NCBI GenBank assembly: GCA_028352435.1
Contig: JAOMMB010000007.1
Location: 1-51,480, forward strand
DNA from: Candidatus Thioglobus sp.
GTDB taxonomy: Bacteria > Pseudomonadota > Gammaproteobacteria > PS1 > Pseudothioglobaceae
Direction: 5' to 3'
DNA: 51,480 nucleotides
Shown here piece after piece: positions 5,240-31,126 of the stretch. The translations under genes were made by a program, and so were the position numbers. The notes beneath the pieces were generated by a model, which ran no database searches, was not told the DNA's origin, and was given only the letters and a program-made list of their open reading frames with translations. Numbering within the stretch: the stretch's first letter is position 1; each line of letters begins with the position of its first letter.

Positions 5240-5437
5240 TTATAAAATAATATTTTTTTCAGAATTAATAATGTGTTTTAACACTTGATCCCAATCTTGG
5301 TCAGCCATTTTATCGATAGAAAAATTGGCCGTCATTGAGGTTTTATTTTGTGTTTCAGTGAACTTTAACTCATTTCTTAGGTTGTTAGAACCTGAAAAAT
5401 AACCTATATCTAGAACAAAGTATTTTAAGTTAGTCAT
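5240..5437 (-). CDS. Small protein of unknown function, last gene of the sulfur operon
   Basis: This 65-residue cytosolic-looking protein is not recognised. It has no Cys, no membrane segment and no signal peptide. It starts 17 bp after the second DsrE-like gene and is the last gene of the minus-strand operon. Its C-terminus (NSEKNIIL) ends in a short hydrophobic run after a polar turn, as do the two DsrE-like proteins upstream (DKSDHILTI and NHDKVVSI), which recalls the tail of DsrH/TusB-type subunits. That likeness is weak and only suggests a diverged third partner. Confidence 0.6.
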   Translation of the reverse strand: MTNLKYFVLDIGYFSGSNNLRNELKFTETQNKTSMTANFSIDKMADQDWDQVLKHIINSEKNIIL

Positions 5438-5454
5438 ATTGTGTGTTTTATGGA

Positions 5455-5739
5455 TTAAATGGTAAGTATGTGATCAGACTTATCTAGTTCTGCACGAAAT
5501 CGAGTCTGGTCTATTCTCTGTATGTTTTCATCATCAAGTATTGATAAGGGCATAATTTCACACAACTCCAGTAACTCTGCATTTTCAATATTTTCATCAT
5601 TTTCTTCAATGGGTCTATCAACAAAGATACAGCTAATATGATGTCCAAATATTGTCAATCCAGCAGCTACACGCATTGCTTCTGCATGGTCGTTTATTGC
5701 GAATACTAGAATATTTTTTTTAGTGTTGGATGTTGTCAT
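5455..5739 (-). CDS. DsrE/DsrF-like protein
   Basis: The 94-residue product starts with a beta-strand (NILVFAIND) followed by AEAMRVAAGLTIFGHHISCIFVD, the alternating strand-helix-strand pattern of the DsrE/F-like fold. Family members carry or relay persulfide sulfur between TusA-type carriers and oxidising enzymes. Two Cys are present (HHISCIF, LLELCEI), the second in the region where DsrE-type active Cys often lie. It overlaps the upstream gene by four bases (ATGA), so the pair is translationally coupled. Fold-level assignment is likely; the exact subgroup is not resolved. Confidence 0.65.
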   Translation of the reverse strand: MTTSNTKKNILVFAINDHAEAMRVAAGLTIFGHHISCIFVDRPIEENDENIENAELLELCEIMPLSILDDENIQRIDQTRFRAELDKSDHILTI

Positions 5740-6026
5740 ATTGAGACCACCTTGTCATGGTTGGCAATCATTTCACTTAAGTTGGTTTGGCTACCCATAG
5801 TGGCAACTGAAGTTGTATTGGGGTGATACCGATCCCAAGAATGGTGGCACGCTACAGAGTTTTCTAATATGTTTAAATTTTGTTTAATTTTTGCATCTTC
5901 TAAAGTCTTTACACCTGCACCTGTAAAAAAACAACTGTATTGTTGCTTTTGCCTAATACATGCATTACTTAATGGTAGTAATAGATCAGCACCATGCTCT
6001 TGGCTAATGATAAATAACAAGTTCAT
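5736..6026 (-). CDS. DsrE-family sulfur relay-like protein
   Basis: The 96-residue product has the DsrE-type start NLLFIISQEHGADLLLPLSN followed by the YSCFFTGAGV strand-turn and a VACHHSWDRYHP motif, whose Cys (in ACHH) is a good candidate sulfur-binding residue. DsrE-like proteins are small cytosolic persulfide carriers working with TusA. A strong Shine-Dalgarno (AAGGAG) precedes the start. The gene stands between the secreted 214-aa protein gene and a second DsrE-like gene, in an operon that also encodes a TusA-like carrier and YeeE-type membrane proteins, so cytosolic sulfur relay is the natural reading. Confidence 0.72.
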   Translation of the reverse strand: MNLLFIISQEHGADLLLPLSNACIRQKQQYSCFFTGAGVKTLEDAKIKQNLNILENSVACHHSWDRYHPNTTSVATMGSQTNLSEMIANHDKVVSI

Positions 6027-6037
6027 TCCTTAACTCC

Positions 6038-6682
6038 TTAATCAATAATTATTTTAACATTTGCATAATCTGAAGCTACCAGATCAGCAAAAACTGCAAG
6101 TGATGTAGAAACATCTTTTGTTTGAATAATGATTTTTTCATGTTTTGACTGGGCTTTAGGGTTATCAGCCAATCTCCAGTTTTGGTCTTTCATATTTTGA
6201 ATTTGACTTTTTAGTACTAAGAATTTTTCTCTCATTTTTCCTAGATAAACTCTAGAGCGGGATAATTGCCTCTTAGATCCACTAGCCTTACCTGACACTT
6301 CCACTAATTGTTTGATGTTATTATTTGACCAAATCCATATTTTTTTTTGACCAGCAAGAAAAAATAATGCTGCTAAAGCTCGGTTTTCTTTTTGATTTTT
6401 TCCATAGATCAATAATTCATCGGTATGAGCTATGTTGGATGTGGAAAAAGCCCAAAAGATATCTCTAAAACTAGCAAGTTGCCCTTGGGATTCGAAGTCA
6501 TTAAAAGGGACGCATTTAGTTTTTTTAGTACTATAAAGTACGCATTCTTGGAGTTTGTTGGAGTTAATTGGAACTAGTTTTTCTAAGAACACTTTATTTG
6601 AATTATTTGTATAACTAATATGGGGGTTGGCTATTGACTCACCAAGATGTAGAAAAATACTTATCCCTATAATATAGAGCAT
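6038..6682 (-). CDS. Secreted or membrane-anchored protein with a weak rhodanese-like segment
   Basis: The 214-residue product begins with a hydrophobic stretch ending SIANP near residue 20, read as a signal peptide or anchor. Residues about 90-120 (ELLIYGKNQKENRALAALFF, then AGQKKIWIWS) resemble the strand-helix-strand of rhodanese domains just around the active loop, but no Cys follows, so any rhodanese fold would be inactive. Two Cys occur in the N-terminal third. The C-terminal half is basic and partly helical. It sits in the sulfur operon 3 bp after the 94-aa membrane protein gene. I cannot assign a family with certainty. Confidence 0.6.
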   Translation of the reverse strand: MLYIIGISIFLHLGESIANPHISYTNNSNKVFLEKLVPINSNKLQECVLYSTKKTKCVPFNDFESQGQLASFRDIFWAFSTSNIAHTDELLIYGKNQKENRALAALFFLAGQKKIWIWSNNNIKQLVEVSGKASGSKRQLSRSRVYLGKMREKFLVLKSQIQNMKDQNWRLADNPKAQSKHEKIIIQTKDVSTSLAVFADLVASDYANVKIIID

Positions 6683-6685
6683 TAA

Positions 6686-6970
6686 TTAGCAGCCTCCGAA
6701 TTGACGTTCTGGTATTTTTGAGGATGTATTGTCATTAATTACAGGAGGGTTTTCCATATAGTATCCCATTAAGTCAATAATGGGAAGCTCACCATAATCG
6801 GCACCCATATTTATGCTTAGATCAAATTCTTCAATATTTTTTGGCGTATTCATCTGTTTCATTGCTTCTGGCGACAGCTTGGCAAATGGAAAAATAAGCA
6901 GTAATACAATTAAACTAATTGTTAATGCAGATGAGCAAAAAATTAAACCTAGTTTTGTTTGATATTTCAT
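6686..6970 (-). CDS. Small single-span membrane protein of the sulfur operon
   Basis: This 94-residue protein has one transmembrane helix (about residues 8-30, LIFCSSALTISLIVLLLIF) and a polar tail that should lie outside the cytoplasm, ending ERQFGGC with a C-terminal Cys. The segment after the helix (FAKLSPEAMK) resembles the one in the 72-aa protein of the same operon (FAKTPESLK), so the two may be old paralogs. No known family is recognised. The terminal Cys on a flexible tail would suit binding of sulfur or a metal, but that is inference. Confidence 0.65.
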   Translation of the reverse strand: MKYQTKLGLIFCSSALTISLIVLLLIFPFAKLSPEAMKQMNTPKNIEEFDLSINMGADYGELPIIDLMGYYMENPPVINDNTSSKIPERQFGGC

Positions 6971-6982
6971 AAGGCCTTTTGG

Positions 6983-7057
6983 TTAAGTAAGACTAATGTA
7001 CATTAAGTAAAATGCAGTCGCAAAAGCAATTAATTGAGCAGTAGTTTCATAATCCAT
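6983..7057 (-). CDS. 24-residue single-span membrane microprotein
   Basis: Between the 94-aa and 72-aa genes the minus strand has an ATG at 7057 and a TAA at 6983, encoding MDYETTAQLIAFATAFYLMY plus ISLT. Residues about 6-22 form one short membrane helix with a negative N-terminus. It starts three bases after the stop of the upstream gene, so translational coupling is likely; no strong Shine-Dalgarno of its own is visible. Small single-helix subunits of this sort often stabilise membrane complexes. The case rests on position and composition only. Confidence 0.5.
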   Translation of the reverse strand: MDYETTAQLIAFATAFYLMYISLT

Positions 7058-7060
7058 AAT

Positions 7061-7279
7061 CTAATTACCTTTAAAATGTTTAACAAGTGTTTCTATTGAA
7101 AGGGTTTCACCTGATTCTGGATGAATCGCAGCTGGCGTAAAGAAAGGTACGCCATTTCTAGAAGTTTTCAAAGATTCAGGAGTTTTAGCGAACATATAGA
7201 AAAAAATCACAACTGTCATTATGATGATTAGTATTGATATCACTAAGAGTTGCTTATCTTTTGCTTTGTTAAAAGTCAT
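7061..7279 (-). CDS. Small single-span membrane protein of the sulfur operon
   Basis: The 72-residue product has one transmembrane helix (about residues 10-30, LLVISILIIIMTVVIFFYMF) with a positively charged N-terminus, placing the 40-residue tail in the periplasm by the positive-inside rule. The tail contains PFFTPAAIHPESGETLSIET and no Cys. It begins three bases after the TusA-like gene's stop. Similarity to the 94-aa protein at the helix exit (FAKTPESLK) hints at common origin. I do not recognise a named family. Confidence 0.65.
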   Translation of the reverse strand: MTFNKAKDKQLLVISILIIIMTVVIFFYMFAKTPESLKTSRNGVPFFTPAAIHPESGETLSIETLVKHFKGN

Positions 7280-7282
7280 GAG

Positions 7283-7597
7283 CTAATTTTTTTGTAGAAG
7301 AACTTTCCAGCTCTGATCAGAAAAAACTGTTCCTAAATGTATACTACTTAACTCCGACTGCATTGATGCTAAAGATTCCATTGAAGTGGGATTATCAATG
7401 ACTATCTTGACAATATCACCACTCTTGGCATCATTCATTGCGCCTTTGGTCATTAGCTGTGGTCTAGGGCATGAGAATCCAAGGCAATCGATAGTTTTTG
7501 TAACATTTATCACGTCTCCGTTATCAAGGGTTATTGTGGGATCATTGTCGCTGATGTTAGCCACTTTTTCAGTCACTTTTTTTGTAAATAAACCCAT
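7283..7597 (-). CDS. TusA-like sulfur carrier protein
   Basis: The 104-residue product has an N-terminal extension of about 30 residues and then the TusA core TKTIDCLGFSCPRPQLMTKG, with the CPxP motif at Cys43 and an additional Cys38. TusA-family proteins carry a persulfide on the CPxP Cys. When paired with YeeE/YedE channels (TsuA-TsuB), they are thought to accept sulfur from imported thiosulfate. The start codon overlaps the stop of the upstream YeeE-type gene by one base (TAATG), supporting functional pairing. The charged extension is longer than in plain TusA (about 80 residues). Confidence 0.9.
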   Translation of the reverse strand: MGLFTKKVTEKVANISDNDPTITLDNGDVINVTKTIDCLGFSCPRPQLMTKGAMNDAKSGDIVKIVIDNPTSMESLASMQSELSSIHLGTVFSDQSWKVLLQKN

Positions 7598-8190
7598 TAC
7601 TTATCTCCTGTTGTTTTTAAAGTTTTCTTTGCTTGAATTTTTAAGTATATGAAAAGTAAAACTGCAAACTGTATTAGTCCAAAGAATATTGCTGGGATTC
7701 CAGTTTTTTCTTGGAGTGTTTCTGCATTTGCAAATCCTAGCTGAAGCGTTTCTAGATTAGGCTCACCAGTCATTGCAATAGGAGCGGGCGGCCAATAATC
7801 AAATGACCAAAGTAATGAGAATAAAAACATACCTATAAAGGTAAATAGTAATGCCCAGATCGCGCCAACATTACCTTCACCAGACTTAACCCATGTCGAT
7901 ACGGTGCACGCACCTGCAAGAACCATGCCTATTCCAAATATAAATAAGCCGATAACCTGATTAAGGCCAACATCAAATTTCATGGTTTGGCCTACACCAA
8001 AGGTAATAAATGTTGTAAATCCTATGGTTAAAACCATCATAGCAAGCAATAAAGCTTCAGTATTTCGATAGGTTTTAAACAATATTGCATCTCTTAGAGC
8101 TGCTGTATTACAAAATCTAGAGCGTTGTACTAGTAATCCAACTATAGATCCAAATAAAAATGCGACTAAAATTTCACCAATTACTGACAT
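7597..8190 (-). CDS. YeeE/YedE-family membrane protein, second half-size unit
   Basis: The 197-residue product has about five membrane helices. It carries the family motifs QRSRFCNTAALRDA near Cys27 and GIGMVLAGACTVSTW near Cys95; such Cys line the pore of the thiosulfate transporter TsuA (YeeE). The full YeeE is one longer chain, while here the work seems divided between this gene and the 163-aa gene just upstream (12 bp gap). Its likely role is moving thiosulfate or another sulfur species across the inner membrane and handing it to the TusA-like protein encoded next. The substrate is inferred from the family. Confidence 0.88.
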   Translation of the reverse strand: MSVIGEILVAFLFGSIVGLLVQRSRFCNTAALRDAILFKTYRNTEALLLAMMVLTIGFTTFITFGVGQTMKFDVGLNQVIGLFIFGIGMVLAGACTVSTWVKSGEGNVGAIWALLFTFIGMFLFSLLWSFDYWPPAPIAMTGEPNLETLQLGFANAETLQEKTGIPAIFFGLIQFAVLLFIYLKIQAKKTLKTTGDK

Positions 8191-8202
8191 ATCATTCCTT
8201 TT

Positions 8203-8694
8203 TTAAAATCCTAAAACTTTTTTATAAATATGAGAACCGACCCAGGCGCCTACAATAATTCCAGTCATTGATAAATATCCTCCGAGGTTTAGTTGTGGTG
8301 TCAAGCCAAAGAATGTTGAGACATTGCAAACAAAAGCCAGGCGTATTCCAATACCCATCATAAGTCCACCTATAGTAATCATTACCCATTCAGACAAACT
8401 ACCTGGAAAGCGCCAAAAAAATTCATTGCTTAGCTTTGCACCGACAAATGCACCAAAGAGCATACCAAGAGAAATATAAATTTTCCAATAGCCAAAATCA
8501 GGCGGGAATACTATCTGCCAGAAAGGTATTTCATTAATTTGATCTCCTATAATTAGCTCAGCAGCCAAACCAGTCATCATCGTTTCGCCACCACCAACTG
8601 TCCATGCACCTAAAATTAAAAAAAGAAAAATATCAAAAAAAGCAATGGCTACCAATGCAATTCTAGGATCAAGTGATTTTTTAAAAAAGTCCAT
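8203..8694 (-). CDS. YeeE/YedE-family membrane protein, first half-size unit
   Basis: The 163-residue product has four to five hydrophobic helices and the family-type motif GGLMMGIGIRLAFVCNVSTF with Cys123, matching the YeeE/YedE (sulf_transp) pattern G.G.....C..G. It is the first gene of the sulfur operon. A periplasmic loop (about residues 48-70, rich in Pro and Trp) separates the first helices. Together with the 197-aa protein it probably forms the two halves of one transporter. The start lies inside a 15-bp sequence that recurs 37 bp upstream. Confidence 0.85.
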   Translation of the reverse strand: MDFFKKSLDPRIALVAIAFFDIFLFLILGAWTVGGGETMMTGLAAELIIGDQINEIPFWQIVFPPDFGYWKIYISLGMLFGAFVGAKLSNEFFWRFPGSLSEWVMITIGGLMMGIGIRLAFVCNVSTFFGLTPQLNLGGYLSMTGIIVGAWVGSHIYKKVLGF

Positions 8695-9236: not shown

Positions 9237-10184
9237 ATGAAAAACATGAAAATAAAAACGCTTGCTTTTGGTATTGCGTTTTCGATCGGAGGAGTGGCAT
9301 TAGCAAATACACCATTAGTTGATGTTGATTGGGTCAAGTCAAATTCTTGTAATAGCAATGTTAGAGTTATTGATATTCGTAATCGTTTAGATGGTGGATC
9401 AAAAACAGACTATCTTAAAGGTCATATTCCTTGTGCCGTGTATAGTAATTACCTGAAAGACGGATGGCGCGCAAAGGTTAAAAATGTTGTTGGTCAGTTA
9501 GCGCCAAGTCCAAAACTTGAAAAATTAATTGGTAAGCTTGGTGTTGATAATAATACACATGTCGTTATTTATCATCATGGTAAAAGTGCATTGGATCTAG
9601 CTAGTGCTACTAGAGTTTATTGGACTTTTAAAGTTTTAGGCCATGATAATGTTTCAATTCTAGATGGTGGCTATCTTGCTTACATTAAAGAAAAAGATAG
9701 TAAGAAGAGGGTGAAGAATAAAGTTGAAAGAGGTAATTATGCAGTGAGGGCTAAAAATTTCAAAGCTTCCCTGCGTACTAACATGATGGCCGATTCAGGT
9801 GATGTTCTATCAGCTATCAATGATTCAAGTGTGGCGTTAGTTGATCTTCGTCCTCATCATCAGTTTATTGGTATTAATAGACACGGAAAAGCAAAAAGAA
9901 ATGGTACTATACCAACAGCTAAGAATCTTTCTGAAAGCTGGTTAACAAAGAATGGTGGCGGTACTTTCCGTAGCCCAGATGACATTAAAAAACTTTATAA
10001 AGTTGCTGGTGTGAAACTTGGCGGTGATCAAATTAATTTTTGTAACACTGGACATTGGGCCTCTCTAGGTTGGTTTGCCGATAGTGAAATTATGGGCAAC
10101 AAGGCTTCAAGACTTTATGATGGTTCAATGGTTGAGTGGTCATCAAACAGCTCTTTACCAATGGAGAAGAAAGTAGATTTTTAA
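9237..10184 (+). CDS. Periplasmic rhodanese-type sulfurtransferase, two-domain
   Basis: The 315-residue product has a signal peptide (cleavage after ALA near residue 23). An N-terminal rhodanese domain (VRVIDIRN, GHIPCAVY, VIYHHGK, DNVSILDGG) has no Cys in its active loop. A C-terminal domain (VALVDLR, then INFCNTGHWASLGWF) has Cys269 as the likely catalytic residue. Such proteins move sulfane sulfur from thiosulfate or persulfides to a thiol. I chose the ATG at 9237 because AAAGAGGG lies seven bases upstream; a TTG further up lacks a site. It diverges from the YeeE-TusA-DsrE operon, fitting periplasmic sulfur handling. Confidence 0.87.
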   Translation: MKNMKIKTLAFGIAFSIGGVALANTPLVDVDWVKSNSCNSNVRVIDIRNRLDGGSKTDYLKGHIPCAVYSNYLKDGWRAKVKNVVGQLAPSPKLEKLIGKLGVDNNTHVVIYHHGKSALDLASATRVYWTFKVLGHDNVSILDGGYLAYIKEKDSKKRVKNKVERGNYAVRAKNFKASLRTNMMADSGDVLSAINDSSVALVDLRPHHQFIGINRHGKAKRNGTIPTAKNLSESWLTKNGGGTFRSPDDIKKLYKVAGVKLGGDQINFCNTGHWASLGWFADSEIMGNKASRLYDGSMVEWSSNSSLPMEKKVDF

Positions 10185-10203: not shown

Positions 10204-10851
10204 ATGTTAAGAACAATATTGGCCTCTATAGCACTTATTTTTTTAGGTAGTGCTATAGGGGCCAATTCTGTTATTGGTATAAAACAAATGTCTTTAATTG
10301 AATATGATAAGCAATTATGCAATGCAGAGTTGATAATCCTTAAAGGTGACCTTATAAAGTTAAGCAAAATAACGACGCCTGACTTATATAAAAAAGGGCT
10401 AAAAAGCCGAATGGATAGCGCCTTTGGAACGCTTAATTGGATTTGCAGAGGATTTATTGACAATGACCCTAATTTGTTTAGCTTATTTGAAAAATTAGAG
10501 CCATTATTTATAGCAAACAAGTTTAAAGAGCTTCATTTAAAACTTGATTTTTTGATAAAAAAATATCCATTAAATCTTGATCAATATTTACCAGAACAAG
10601 CATCAAAAGAAGATATTAAGGTTGGTATAAAAATTTATCAGCATTATTGTCATGGTTGTCATTTAAGCCATAATGATCAATTAGAGATGCCAGCATTATC
10701 ATTAGAGGTGATGGCTAAAAGCCTTGCACCCGAAGAATTTATTGCTCGTATGATTGCTGGGGTTAAGGGTAATGGTGTCATTGCGCTTAGGAATCCTTTG
10801 AGCCGTAAAGATATTTCTAGTATTTATAGCTATTTATTGGACAAAAAATAA
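10204..10851 (+). CDS. Periplasmic c-type cytochrome, single heme
   Basis: The 215-residue product has a signal peptide (first about 20 residues) and one heme-binding motif, CHGCH at residues 149-153, followed by a class I cytochrome c tail with a candidate Met ligand region (QLEMPALS or ARMIAG) and a final helix (DISSIYSYLL). The first 130 residues are a helical region that I do not recognise. It starts 19 bp after the rhodanese stop, so the two are likely co-transcribed. It could take electrons from periplasmic sulfur oxidation; that role is inferred from position. Confidence 0.8.
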   Translation: MLRTILASIALIFLGSAIGANSVIGIKQMSLIEYDKQLCNAELIILKGDLIKLSKITTPDLYKKGLKSRMDSAFGTLNWICRGFIDNDPNLFSLFEKLEPLFIANKFKELHLKLDFLIKKYPLNLDQYLPEQASKEDIKVGIKIYQHYCHGCHLSHNDQLEMPALSLEVMAKSLAPEEFIARMIAGVKGNGVIALRNPLSRKDISSIYSYLLDKK

Positions 10852-10902: not shown

Positions 10903-11196
10903 ATGTCCACATTGCTTTCTGATCGTAATCTTAGACACTTGTTTAACGTTTGCTCGACTGAACAAGTAAAGGAGTTCGTCCCACTTAAGAGAAGTATTCG
11001 TCTACATGGTCATAGTACAACCATTAGATTGGAAATAGCTTTTTGGACAGTTTTAGAGCAAATGGCAGACGATGAAGAGGTGTCATTGGCAAAACTACTG
11101 GAGTTAATTAGTGACACCTGTCTTGTGGCAAATGATAAAAATCTTGCCTCTTGTTTGCGAGTGCTATGCCTAAAGTATATTAATATCTATTATTAA
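10903..11196 (+). CDS. Ribbon-helix-helix domain protein (RHH_4 type)
   Basis: The 97-residue product contains RSIRLHGHSTTIRLEIAFWT followed by a helix (VLEQMADDEEVSLAKLLELI) and NLASCLRVLCLKYI. This is the pattern of the RHH_4 family (arginine/serine strand 'R..GH.TS.RLE..FW', two helices), seen as small putative DNA-binding proteins. It follows the cytochrome gene by 51 bp on the same strand and could regulate the divergent sulfur region, though its targets cannot be read from the sequence. It ends 9 bp before the convergent peroxiredoxin gene. Confidence 0.78.
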   Translation: MSTLLSDRNLRHLFNVCSTEQVKEFVPLKRSIRLHGHSTTIRLEIAFWTVLEQMADDEEVSLAKLLELISDTCLVANDKNLASCLRVLCLKYINIYY

Positions 11197-29569: not shown

Positions 29570-31126
29570 TTAGAAACTCCAACCAACTGACGCAGCTGAA
29601 CTGGAAATATTTCCTGATTGCGAGCCGAGCAATCGATAAGTAATATCTTGCTCACCATCGTGATGGGAAAATCCGTATGCAACGGCGTGAGTGCCATTGT
29701 AGTTGCCTGTCGCAATAGAAAAATTAGACTTGCCAAAGCTAGGTGCACTAAGTGCGCCCATGGCCATGGATTGCGCCAATCCAGTTTCTAGCTCTTGTAT
29801 GGCGTTAATATTGATACTTATTGCAGTAGTATTAGTACTAATCAAAGTGGTATTGGCAGATGTTGATGAGGTATTTGAGGCGATAGAGCTATCTTGAGAA
29901 GTATTTTTTGATTGTATAGCGCTAATATCTGTGCCATTTGTAGTTATGCTATTGGCATTGGAATTTGTAGCGCTGTCAACATAAGTTTTGGTGGTGGCGT
30001 GATTATCGCCGGTTGGGGTTTGTACGCTAAGTGTACCGAGTACGGTGGTATTGTGCGAGGTGCTGGTGCCAATTTGGAGTTCGTTGATACTTGAGGCGAT
30101 TTCGTCTTTGCTACTGCTGGAGGTTGATGCATCTTCAATGGTAAATGAGTTGGTTCCAATATGAACAACATCACCTACTTTACGCAGCACGTTATTGCCG
30201 GATGCATCTTTTAAAGTATTGACGGTTAAGTTGCCATTAATCGTTACCTCTTGCGTGGAAAAATCACCTTGAATTAAGGGTGATGAAGTGTCACCATTAG
30301 AGATGTAGAGTTTATTAGATCCGGTTTCGTTATAGCCAGCCTTGTGTCCAATGAAGACATTGTTTGATCCACTTGCATTGGTGTATCCAGCTCGATAGCC
30401 AACGGCAGTATTACTGTCGCCGTTGCTACTATTAAGAGTGCCATTGCCGTTAGACACATTGTAAGATCCGGTGGTATTGGCTAATTGGGCATCGTCACCC
30501 AGTGCAGTGTTAAAACCGCCTGTAGTGTTAGCTTTCATACTTTGATTGCCCAGTGCTGTGTTGTTTGATCCGGTGGTGTTATAACGCAGTGCATAATTAC
30601 CAACCGTGGTATTGTCAGAGCCTGAAGTGTTGGCACGCATGGCAAAATTACCAATTGAGGTGTTATCATTGCCGGAAGAATTTGAGCGCATTGAGTAGTT
30701 GCCTATGGCCGTATTTTTATCACCCGAGGTATTGTCACTGAGTGAGTAATTACCAATTGAAGTGTTACTTGTTCCGGTGGTATTTTCTTGCAAGGCATAA
30801 TTACCAACCGCAGTATTTTTGTCACCAGTAGTGTTATTTTTGAGTGATTCAAAACCCACTGAGGTGTTGTCATTTCCAGTGGTGTTATTGCGCAATGAGT
30901 AGCTACCAATAGCGGTATTTTGCTTGCCTGAAGTATTGTCTCGTAAGCCAAAATAACCAACAGAAGTGTTATTTATCCCCGTGGTATTTTCTTTCATTGC
31001 TGAGTCGCCGATAGCGACATTGTTACTGCCAGTCGTAATGTTTAAAAGTGCATTGGTGCCAGTAGCCGTATTATCTGAAAATGCAAGTGTTGGCAGTAAA
31101 ATAAGCACTATAAATAGTGACTTCAT
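29570..31126 (-). CDS. YadA-type trimeric autotransporter adhesin with 17-residue repeats
   Basis: The 518-residue protein has a signal peptide (cleaved near AFS, residue 17). Then come about a dozen repeats of 17 residues of the form NTAIGNYSLRNNTTGND (residues about 22-275), a linker domain, a coiled-coil stalk rich in Ser/Thr/Asn (TSANTTLISTNTTAISININ) and a C-terminal YadA anchor (LAQSMAMGALSAP, VAYGFSHHDG, final aromatic in VGWSF). Three chains form an outer-membrane beta-barrel that displays the head. It is probably an adhesin for cells, particles or a host surface; ligand unknown. Confidence 0.85.
   Translation of the reverse strand: MKSLFIVLILLPTLAFSDNTATGTNALLNITTGSNNVAIGDSAMKENTTGINNTSVGYFGLRDNTSGKQNTAIGSYSLRNNTTGNDNTSVGFESLKNNTTGDKNTAVGNYALQENTTGTSNTSIGNYSLSDNTSGDKNTAIGNYSMRSNSSGNDNTSIGNFAMRANTSGSDNTTVGNYALRYNTTGSNNTALGNQSMKANTTGGFNTALGDDAQLANTTGSYNVSNGNGTLNSSNGDSNTAVGYRAGYTNASGSNNVFIGHKAGYNETGSNKLYISNGDTSSPLIQGDFSTQEVTINGNLTVNTLKDASGNNVLRKVGDVVHIGTNSFTIEDASTSSSSKDEIASSINELQIGTSTSHNTTVLGTLSVQTPTGDNHATTKTYVDSATNSNANSITTNGTDISAIQSKNTSQDSSIASNTSSTSANTTLISTNTTAISININAIQELETGLAQSMAMGALSAPSFGKSNFSIATGNYNGTHAVAYGFSHHDGEQDITYRLLGSQSGNISSSAASVGWSF
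30300..31066 (-). repeat. Coding tandem repeats, 51-bp (17-aa) units of the adhesin head
   Basis: The region encodes about 12-14 degenerate units with the pattern NT(A/S)(I/V)G..(A/S)(L/M)..NT(T/S)G... . Units are 51 bp, so gain or loss by recombination keeps the frame and changes head length. The last units near 30300-30480 are more diverged. Confidence 0.8.

Follow-up and report, generated by a model that had tools for sequence, protein, structure and literature searches.

A conserved cluster of a split YeeE pair, TusA and DsrE-like proteins as a candidate sulfane-sulfur import and relay system of sulfur-oxidising bacteria

How sulfane sulfur in the periplasm reaches the oxidation enzymes of the cytoplasm has been called unknown or poorly understood (PMC11582611). 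In the YeeE family, SoxT1A has been reported to import sulfur for oxidation and SoxT1B to have a role in signal transduction, and PmpA and PmpB are half-size proteins of about 130 aa with one cysteine each (PMC11582611). The YTD cluster of Desulfobacterota and cable bacteria encodes a YeeE transporter, TusA and a DsrEFH trio (PMC13293266, PMC13047784), and transfer of sulfur from TusA to DsrEFH type II and on to DsrC was shown in vitro for cable bacteria (PMC13293266). Here we describe a gene cluster of 'Candidatus Thioglobus' sp. that is distinct from TsuAB, PmpAB, SoxT and the published YTD cluster, though it would work like a combination of them. It lies in a stretch of 51,480 nt (assembly GCA_028352435.1, contig JAOMMB010000007.1, positions 1 to 51,480, forward strand; hereafter the window) from a genome of 0.93 Mb that is 67% complete. 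Ten consecutive open reading frames (ORFs) at 5240-8694 on the minus strand encode, from upstream, E1-E2-TusA-m72-m24-m94-s214-d96-d94-p65; a rhodanese, a cytochrome c and an RHH_4-family (RHH) regulator run divergently from them (Table 1). No description of this cluster was found in the open-access literature searched, with subscription papers and preprints outside the search.

We consider that the cluster is probably (at roughly 0.6) a system that imports sulfane sulfur and relays it to the cytoplasmic reverse-Dsr pathway. This reading is favoured because the gene order is conserved across classes in about 50 loci, hardly any variation is seen in the redox or carrier cysteines of any step, and the cysteines of the channel fall on those of TsuA. 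Moreover, m94 ends in Gly-Cys in every sequence and Gly-Cys ends recur in loci L061 and L081, d96 matches DsrE type II with its cysteine aligned, and the carriers mostly have dsrA and canonical DsrE and seldom SoxC, with dsrA enriched among carriers in a class sample. The reported SoxT1 import (PMC11582611) and TusA-DsrEFH-II-DsrC transfer (PMC13293266) point the same way. A sequence-only reading of the window had already proposed such a link between YeeE, TusA and DsrE proteins, and the conserved order and reverse-Dsr carriers support it; it had also recognised the half-size YeeE proteins with their conserved cysteines, the CPxP carrier and the divergent rhodanese and cytochrome, all of which we find as it had them. 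It had left the 65-aa tenth gene undescribed and had missed the invariant C-terminal cysteine of m94 and the RHH regulator.

Conservation of the cluster

The ten small genes are packed almost without gaps, as had been noted from the letters, with distances of 12, -1, 3, 3, 12, 3, 11, -4 and 17 nt from E1 to p65. All of them, the 24- and 72-aa ORFs included, are genuine genes, because the ratio of non-synonymous to synonymous substitution (dN/dS) is low. In fact, when the window was compared with three congeners (96-98% E2 identity to the window), no informative comparison gave any of the ten ORFs a dN/dS above 0.30, a sign of purifying selection, and the values for m24 were 0-0.12. The sole higher value (0.77 for m94) was obtained between L064 and L065, near-identical congeners that scarcely differ at synonymous sites.

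When GTDB contigs were scanned with E2, 47 loci of 56-97% identity were obtained, including Sedimenticola, Thiorhodococcus, Sulfuriferula, Thiobacillus, Rhodospirillaceae-type metagenome-assembled genomes (MAGs), Granulosicoccaceae, SAR324 and 'Candidatus Thioglobus' sp. (L016). The last is among the carriers most closely related to the window, which places the window in the SUP05/Thioglobus group. The cluster spans Alpha-, Beta- and Gammaproteobacteria and SAR324 (about 50 loci), and nearly all complete loci share the order E1-E2-TusA-m72-m24-m94-s214-d96-d94-p65-rhodanese-cytochrome, with the rhodanese upstream of E1 in some and divergent in others, as in the window. A profile census covered 56 loci, a few of them redundant and several cut by contig ends. 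E2 was counted in 56, E1 and TusA in 55 each, m72 in 53, m24 and m94 in 51 each, the rhodanese in 50, s214 and d94 in 49 each, d96 in 48, p65 in 47, the cytochrome in 44 and the RHH regulator in 23. This cross-class synteny is far above chance. The sequence-only reading had made its proposal depend on the small proteins accompanying YeeE and on a conserved order among sulfur oxidisers, and both are observed. Within the genus, the cluster is present in 4 of the 12 genomes examined.

Some loci depart from this pattern. A divergent locus in a Desulfobulbaceae MAG (L061:9329-12505) contains E1-E2-TusA and a rhodanese together with two single-span proteins, of which one ends in RGC, and lacks the trio d96-d94-p65 and the cytochrome; a survey of relatives found this type in 1 of 78, so that it is an isolated case, probably acquired by horizontal transfer. 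L064 and L065 have a synonymous divergence (dS) of 0 from s214 to p65, whereas their E2 and TusA genes diverge strongly, those of L064 being near to the window copies (dS 0.05-0.08); this mosaic history is likely due to interspecies recombination. Both also have, at the same position (L064:9265-10338 and L065:9553-10626), a divergent rhodanese far from the window copy (128 bits, against 684 for L063), which suggests replacement of this gene. A phage or mobile origin of the cluster was rejected, no relative being found in viral contigs. Three records of phage collections (OR850166.1, OR851619.1 and MT835690.1) gave weak YeeE-family matches (30-36% identity); they are unannotated, two are shorter than 2.3 kb, and they are possibly bacterial contamination.

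The split YeeE pair and TusA

Both halves pass the PF04143 gathering cut-off of 27 bits (E2 89.8, E1 74.6), and the carrier passes the general TusA family PF01206. When E2 and E1 were aligned with HMMER to Spirochaeta TsuA (6leo; E 4e-10 and 1.3e-7, respectively), C27 and C95 of E2 fell on TsuA C22 and C91 and C123 of E1 on C293. The split pair therefore retains the whole cysteine path. Column counts among homologs were 56/56 for C27, 57/57 for C95 and 55/55 for C123, and in TusA 56/56 for C43 and 53/56 for C38.

The retained channel cysteines and the adjacent TusA-family gene are shared with TsuA-TsuB (YeeE-YeeD), and would be expected of an assimilatory thiosulfate importer like that of Escherichia coli, with added accessory proteins, in which TusA/TsuB splits thiosulfate for cysteine synthesis. 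However, here two polypeptides make up the channel, the gene for the C-terminal half comes first, and the gene context and the hosts are different. The family scores are far under the cut-offs: 66.8 (E2) and 31.9 (E1) of 645 bits for TsuA NF041049, 63.1 and 46.7 of 400 for NF052577, and 17.4 of 147.5 for TsuB. The TsuA-TsuB assignment of the sequence-only reading is consequently not supported. Moreover, the carriers, with their Dsr and Sox genes, are sulfur oxidisers, and assimilation needs neither a DsrE-like trio nor a periplasmic rhodanese. For these reasons we regard an assimilatory role as improbable.

PmpA/PmpB resemble the pair in that both YeeE proteins are half-size and presumably form a heterodimer, but E1 and E2 are longer (163 and 197 aa), with one invariant cysteine in E1 and two in E2. 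SoxT1A/SoxT1B are likewise YeeE proteins of sulfur oxidisers, and have as genomic neighbours rhodanese or TusA genes and a repressor that responds to sulfane sulfur. They differ in being full length (330-350 aa and nine helices, against two ORFs here), in their ArsR-type regulator and in their sHdr or Sox context, and neither a protein with a Gly-Cys tail nor a DsrE trio has been described with them. Selenium transport was rejected: YedE/FdhT is the top-scoring family, but at only 69 and 56 of 350 bits, and there are no linked selenium genes. The neighbouring SelO gene (676-2373) encodes a protein adenylyltransferase.

The DsrE-like trio, the rhodaneses and the membrane miniproteins

The trio was compared with DsrEFH type II sequences from the YTD locus of the Desulfobulbaceae genome that bears L061 and from its relatives. 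In profile-profile comparison d96 matched DsrE type II (probability 91, E 1.3e-6, 88 columns) with Cys60, conserved in 48/48 homologs, on the active cysteine of DsrE-II. The best slot of d94 was DsrF-II (E 0.03 over 87 columns) and that of p65 DsrH-II (E 0.013), both weak matches; each subunit was best in its own slot, and the other pairings gave E values of at least 0.22. Comparison of d96 with canonical DsrE of a congener gave a probability of 2, its PDB profile search no real match, and d94 reached E 0.78 with PDB DsrF 2hy5_B. The model of d94 has a predicted alpha/beta fold at a predicted local distance difference test score (pLDDT) of 93, and that of p65 is uncertain (pLDDT 71). The order of the trio matches DsrEFH type II, with sizes of 96, 94 and 65 aa as compared to 104, 104 and 57 aa. 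We thus interpret the trio as a distant DsrEFH type II-like set, most firmly for d96, less so for d94 and weakly for p65.

With DsrEFH type II models rebuilt from 29-31 sequences, which are distinct from the published ones and of which the DsrE-II model gives its members 222-296 bits, the best scores of the trio were 24.1, 4.1 and 10.6 bits. The published survey used a cut-off of 80 bits (PMC13293266) and probably missed the trio because its scores lie below this value. The YTD cluster is like the present one in having a YeeE transporter, TusA and a trio of DsrE, DsrF and DsrH size in the same order. By contrast, here YeeE is split, m72-m24-m94-s214 set the trio apart from tusA, and the rhodanese, cytochrome and regulator come in addition; the hosts, moreover, are sulfur oxidisers of the oxidative-Dsr type and possess canonical DsrE as well.

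On the periplasmic side, full-length homologs of s214 (317-325 aa) match PF00581 with E 1e-9 to 1e-10, while the shortened window protein has no PF00581 score of its own. The secreted protein, which the sequence-only reading had placed in no known family, is, judged by these long homologs, a shortened and degenerate tandem rhodanese; its C47 and C57 are conserved in 49/50 homologs. In the divergent rhodanese C269 was found in 46/46 sequences, and the CxxCH motif of the cytochrome in 45/45.

The three miniproteins m72, m24 and m94 do remain outside known families, as first supposed: they are genuine conserved families, unannotated so far. A fusion of m72 and m24 in a single ORF of L078 (7549-7932, minus strand) is a hint that the two interact, and suggests that they function together, with m24 running back from the periplasm. 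The net charge of m24 (N-flank -1.6, C-flank -0.4) agrees weakly with the topology proposed for the miniproteins.

Sulfur is carried on a mobile C-terminus with a terminal Gly-Cys-type motif in SoxY (GGCGG) and in DsrC/TusE. A comparable end was observed in m94, which terminates in Gly-Cys-stop in 52/52 sequences (FGGC in 33, FQGC in 12 and FEGC in 3 of 51 homologs). With these swinging arms m94 shares the terminal motif, but it is tethered to the membrane, has the cysteine as last residue and lacks a SoxY or DsrC domain: no Pfam match was found, and neither the SoxY domain PF13501 nor GGCGG is present. In L081 the last 11 residues (SAKAISAPTGC) are identical on m72 and m94, as if the cysteine tail had been duplicated between proteins, and in L061 the closing residues are KRGC on the m72-like protein and IGIGC on E2. 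The Gly-Cys tail may therefore be a sulfur-carrying arm. The cysteine could instead be structural, in a disulfide with s214 or itself or as a metal or haem ligand, considering that s214 has two invariant cysteines and that haem or disulfide partners are encoded in the cluster; this would be compatible with import. Sulfur-carrier arms are, however, built in just this way, with Gly-Cys at the end of a long tail, and in L081 two proteins have such a tail, so that we find a structural role rather unlikely. Going further, m94, m72, m24 and the split YeeE pair might form a new multi-subunit sulfane-sulfur translocase, with the Gly-Cys arm as a new class of carrier that loads the channel directly, a proposal to which we give somewhat less than even odds.

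Table 1. Genes of the cluster and of its divergent neighbours in the window.
Gene	Length (aa)	Position	Strand	Features
E1	163	8203..8694	-	YeeE/TsuA carboxy-terminal half; PF04143 positions 172-310, E 1e-20
E2	197	7597..8190	-	YeeE/TsuA amino-terminal half; PF04143 positions 1-156, E 3e-25
TusA-like sulfur carrier	104	7283..7597	-	PF01206, E 4e-13; CPRP motif; conserved MGLF-type N-terminus
m72	72	7061..7279	-	single-span membrane protein, short conserved tail; no known family
m24	24	6983..7057	-	single-span micropeptide, ~30 aa in other loci; no known family
m94	94	6686..6970	-	single-span; 61-71 aa tail ending in invariant Gly-Cys
s214	214	6038..6682	-	secreted, shortened degenerate rhodanese-like protein; invariant C47 and C57
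d96	96	5736..6026	-	DsrE type II-like subunit; invariant C60
d94	94	5455..5739	-	DsrF type II-like (weaker evidence); EAMRVAAGLTIxGH motif, no conserved Cys
p65	65	5240..5437	-	DsrH type II-like (weak evidence); DWD motif
Tandem rhodanese, exported		9237..10184	+	PF00581; PDB rhodaneses E 1e-23; catalytic C269 in CNTGHW loop
Monohaem cytochrome c, exported		10204..10851	+	weak PF13442; weak similarity to cytochrome c6
RHH_4-family regulator		10903..11196	+	PF13467, E 1e-22; four conserved cysteines C17, C73, C84, C89

Elsewhere in the window, an exported 518-aa protein (29570-31126, minus strand) consists mostly of TGxNT-type repeats and resembles a trimeric autotransporter or head-repeat protein.

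Host pathways and the proposed sulfur route

Outside the genus, dsrA was over the cut-off in 32/36 carriers and SoxB in 28/36. Canonical DsrE was over the cut-off in 41/45 carriers and SoxC in 10/45, leaving 35 without it. Of the 369 genomes in a class sample, 11 carried E2; dsrA was found in 9 of these 11 as compared to 107 of the 358 others (Fisher p = 7e-4), and SoxB in 9/11 as compared to 141/358 (p = 6e-3), kinship being ignored in both tests. A strict link to Sox was rejected, since several Dsr-positive carriers are SoxB-negative, and so was an absolute link to Dsr, since the carrier G332 (L080; 100% complete) has SoxB and neither dsrA nor canonical DsrE.

Several observations weigh against import into the reverse-Dsr pathway. 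G332 implies that the downstream acceptor is not always reverse Dsr, and this organism should have another cytoplasmic sulfur acceptor. In the 10 carriers with SoxC, sulfane sulfur could be handled periplasmically, and carriers are a minority (9/116) of the Dsr-positive genomes in the class sample. Besides the weak homology of d94 and p65, Foldseek returned no specific relative of either, and the net charges of m94 (N-flank +0.75, C-flank +0.19) lend modest support to a periplasmic tail.

The cysteines of the RHH regulator, which was found near the cluster in 23 loci, are conserved in 21-24 of 22-24 sequences. In RHH-free loci (L023, L025, L030, L038, L044, L049, L052 and L055-L058) a phosphonate-type binding protein (PF12974), a HAMP/Cache histidine kinase and a sigma-54 response regulator are encoded directly upstream of E1. 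The two are apparently alternatives, and the latter module may sense some sulfur compound in the periplasm. Such regulators next to the channel, together with the reported part of SoxT1B in signal transduction (PMC11582611) and the carrier without dsr, would fit a system of sulfane-sulfur homeostasis or sensing, in which persulfide sulfur crosses the membrane for signalling or detoxification, as proposed for SoxT1B or PmpAB. We think this unlikely, considering that the link with reverse-Dsr hosts is tight and that TusA, a DsrE-like relay and a cytochrome suggest a catalytic flux.

From the gene order, the homologies, the cysteine conservation and the pathway of the hosts, all of which are observed, we infer the substrate and direction of transport, the part of m94 as carrier, the job of the cytochrome and the final acceptor of the import and relay system as follows. 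Sulfane sulfur, possibly from thiosulfate, polysulfide or protein-bound persulfide, would be mobilised in the periplasm by the exported tandem rhodanese, with the help of the rhodanese-like membrane or secreted protein s214 and the cytochrome c. The Gly-Cys tail of membrane-tethered m94 would accept it as a persulfide and offer it to the split YeeE channel, of which m72 and m24 would be accessory spans. The sulfur would then move along the three channel cysteines to TusA C43, from there to C60 of d96 within a DsrEFH-like complex of d96, d94 and p65, and finally to DsrC or canonical DsrEFH and DsrAB. Control of expression would lie with the RHH regulator, rich in cysteines, or in other hosts with the binding-protein, kinase and sigma-54 module. 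The same parts could be run in reverse, cytoplasmic sulfane sulfur leaving through YeeE and being loaded on m94 for periplasmic storage; sequence cannot reveal direction, and Thioglobus stores sulfur (PMC6509183). Nevertheless, the family members with a demonstrated function import sulfur and the relay proteins face a cytoplasmic oxidation route, and export appears very unlikely.

The cluster unites in one conserved operon a periplasmic rhodanese, a channel, TusA and a DsrE-like trio, which makes the question of sulfur transfer directly testable through single-residue predictions. The hosts include harmless sulfur oxidisers in culture (Sedimenticola, Thiorhodococcus and Sulfuriferula) and abundant marine SUP05 bacteria. 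The cluster further contributes three unannotated families of membrane miniproteins and widens the range of DsrEFH type II-like proteins to oxidative-Dsr bacteria. If it exists, a translocase with a Gly-Cys arm would give sulfur of the periplasm a way into the reverse-Dsr pathway.

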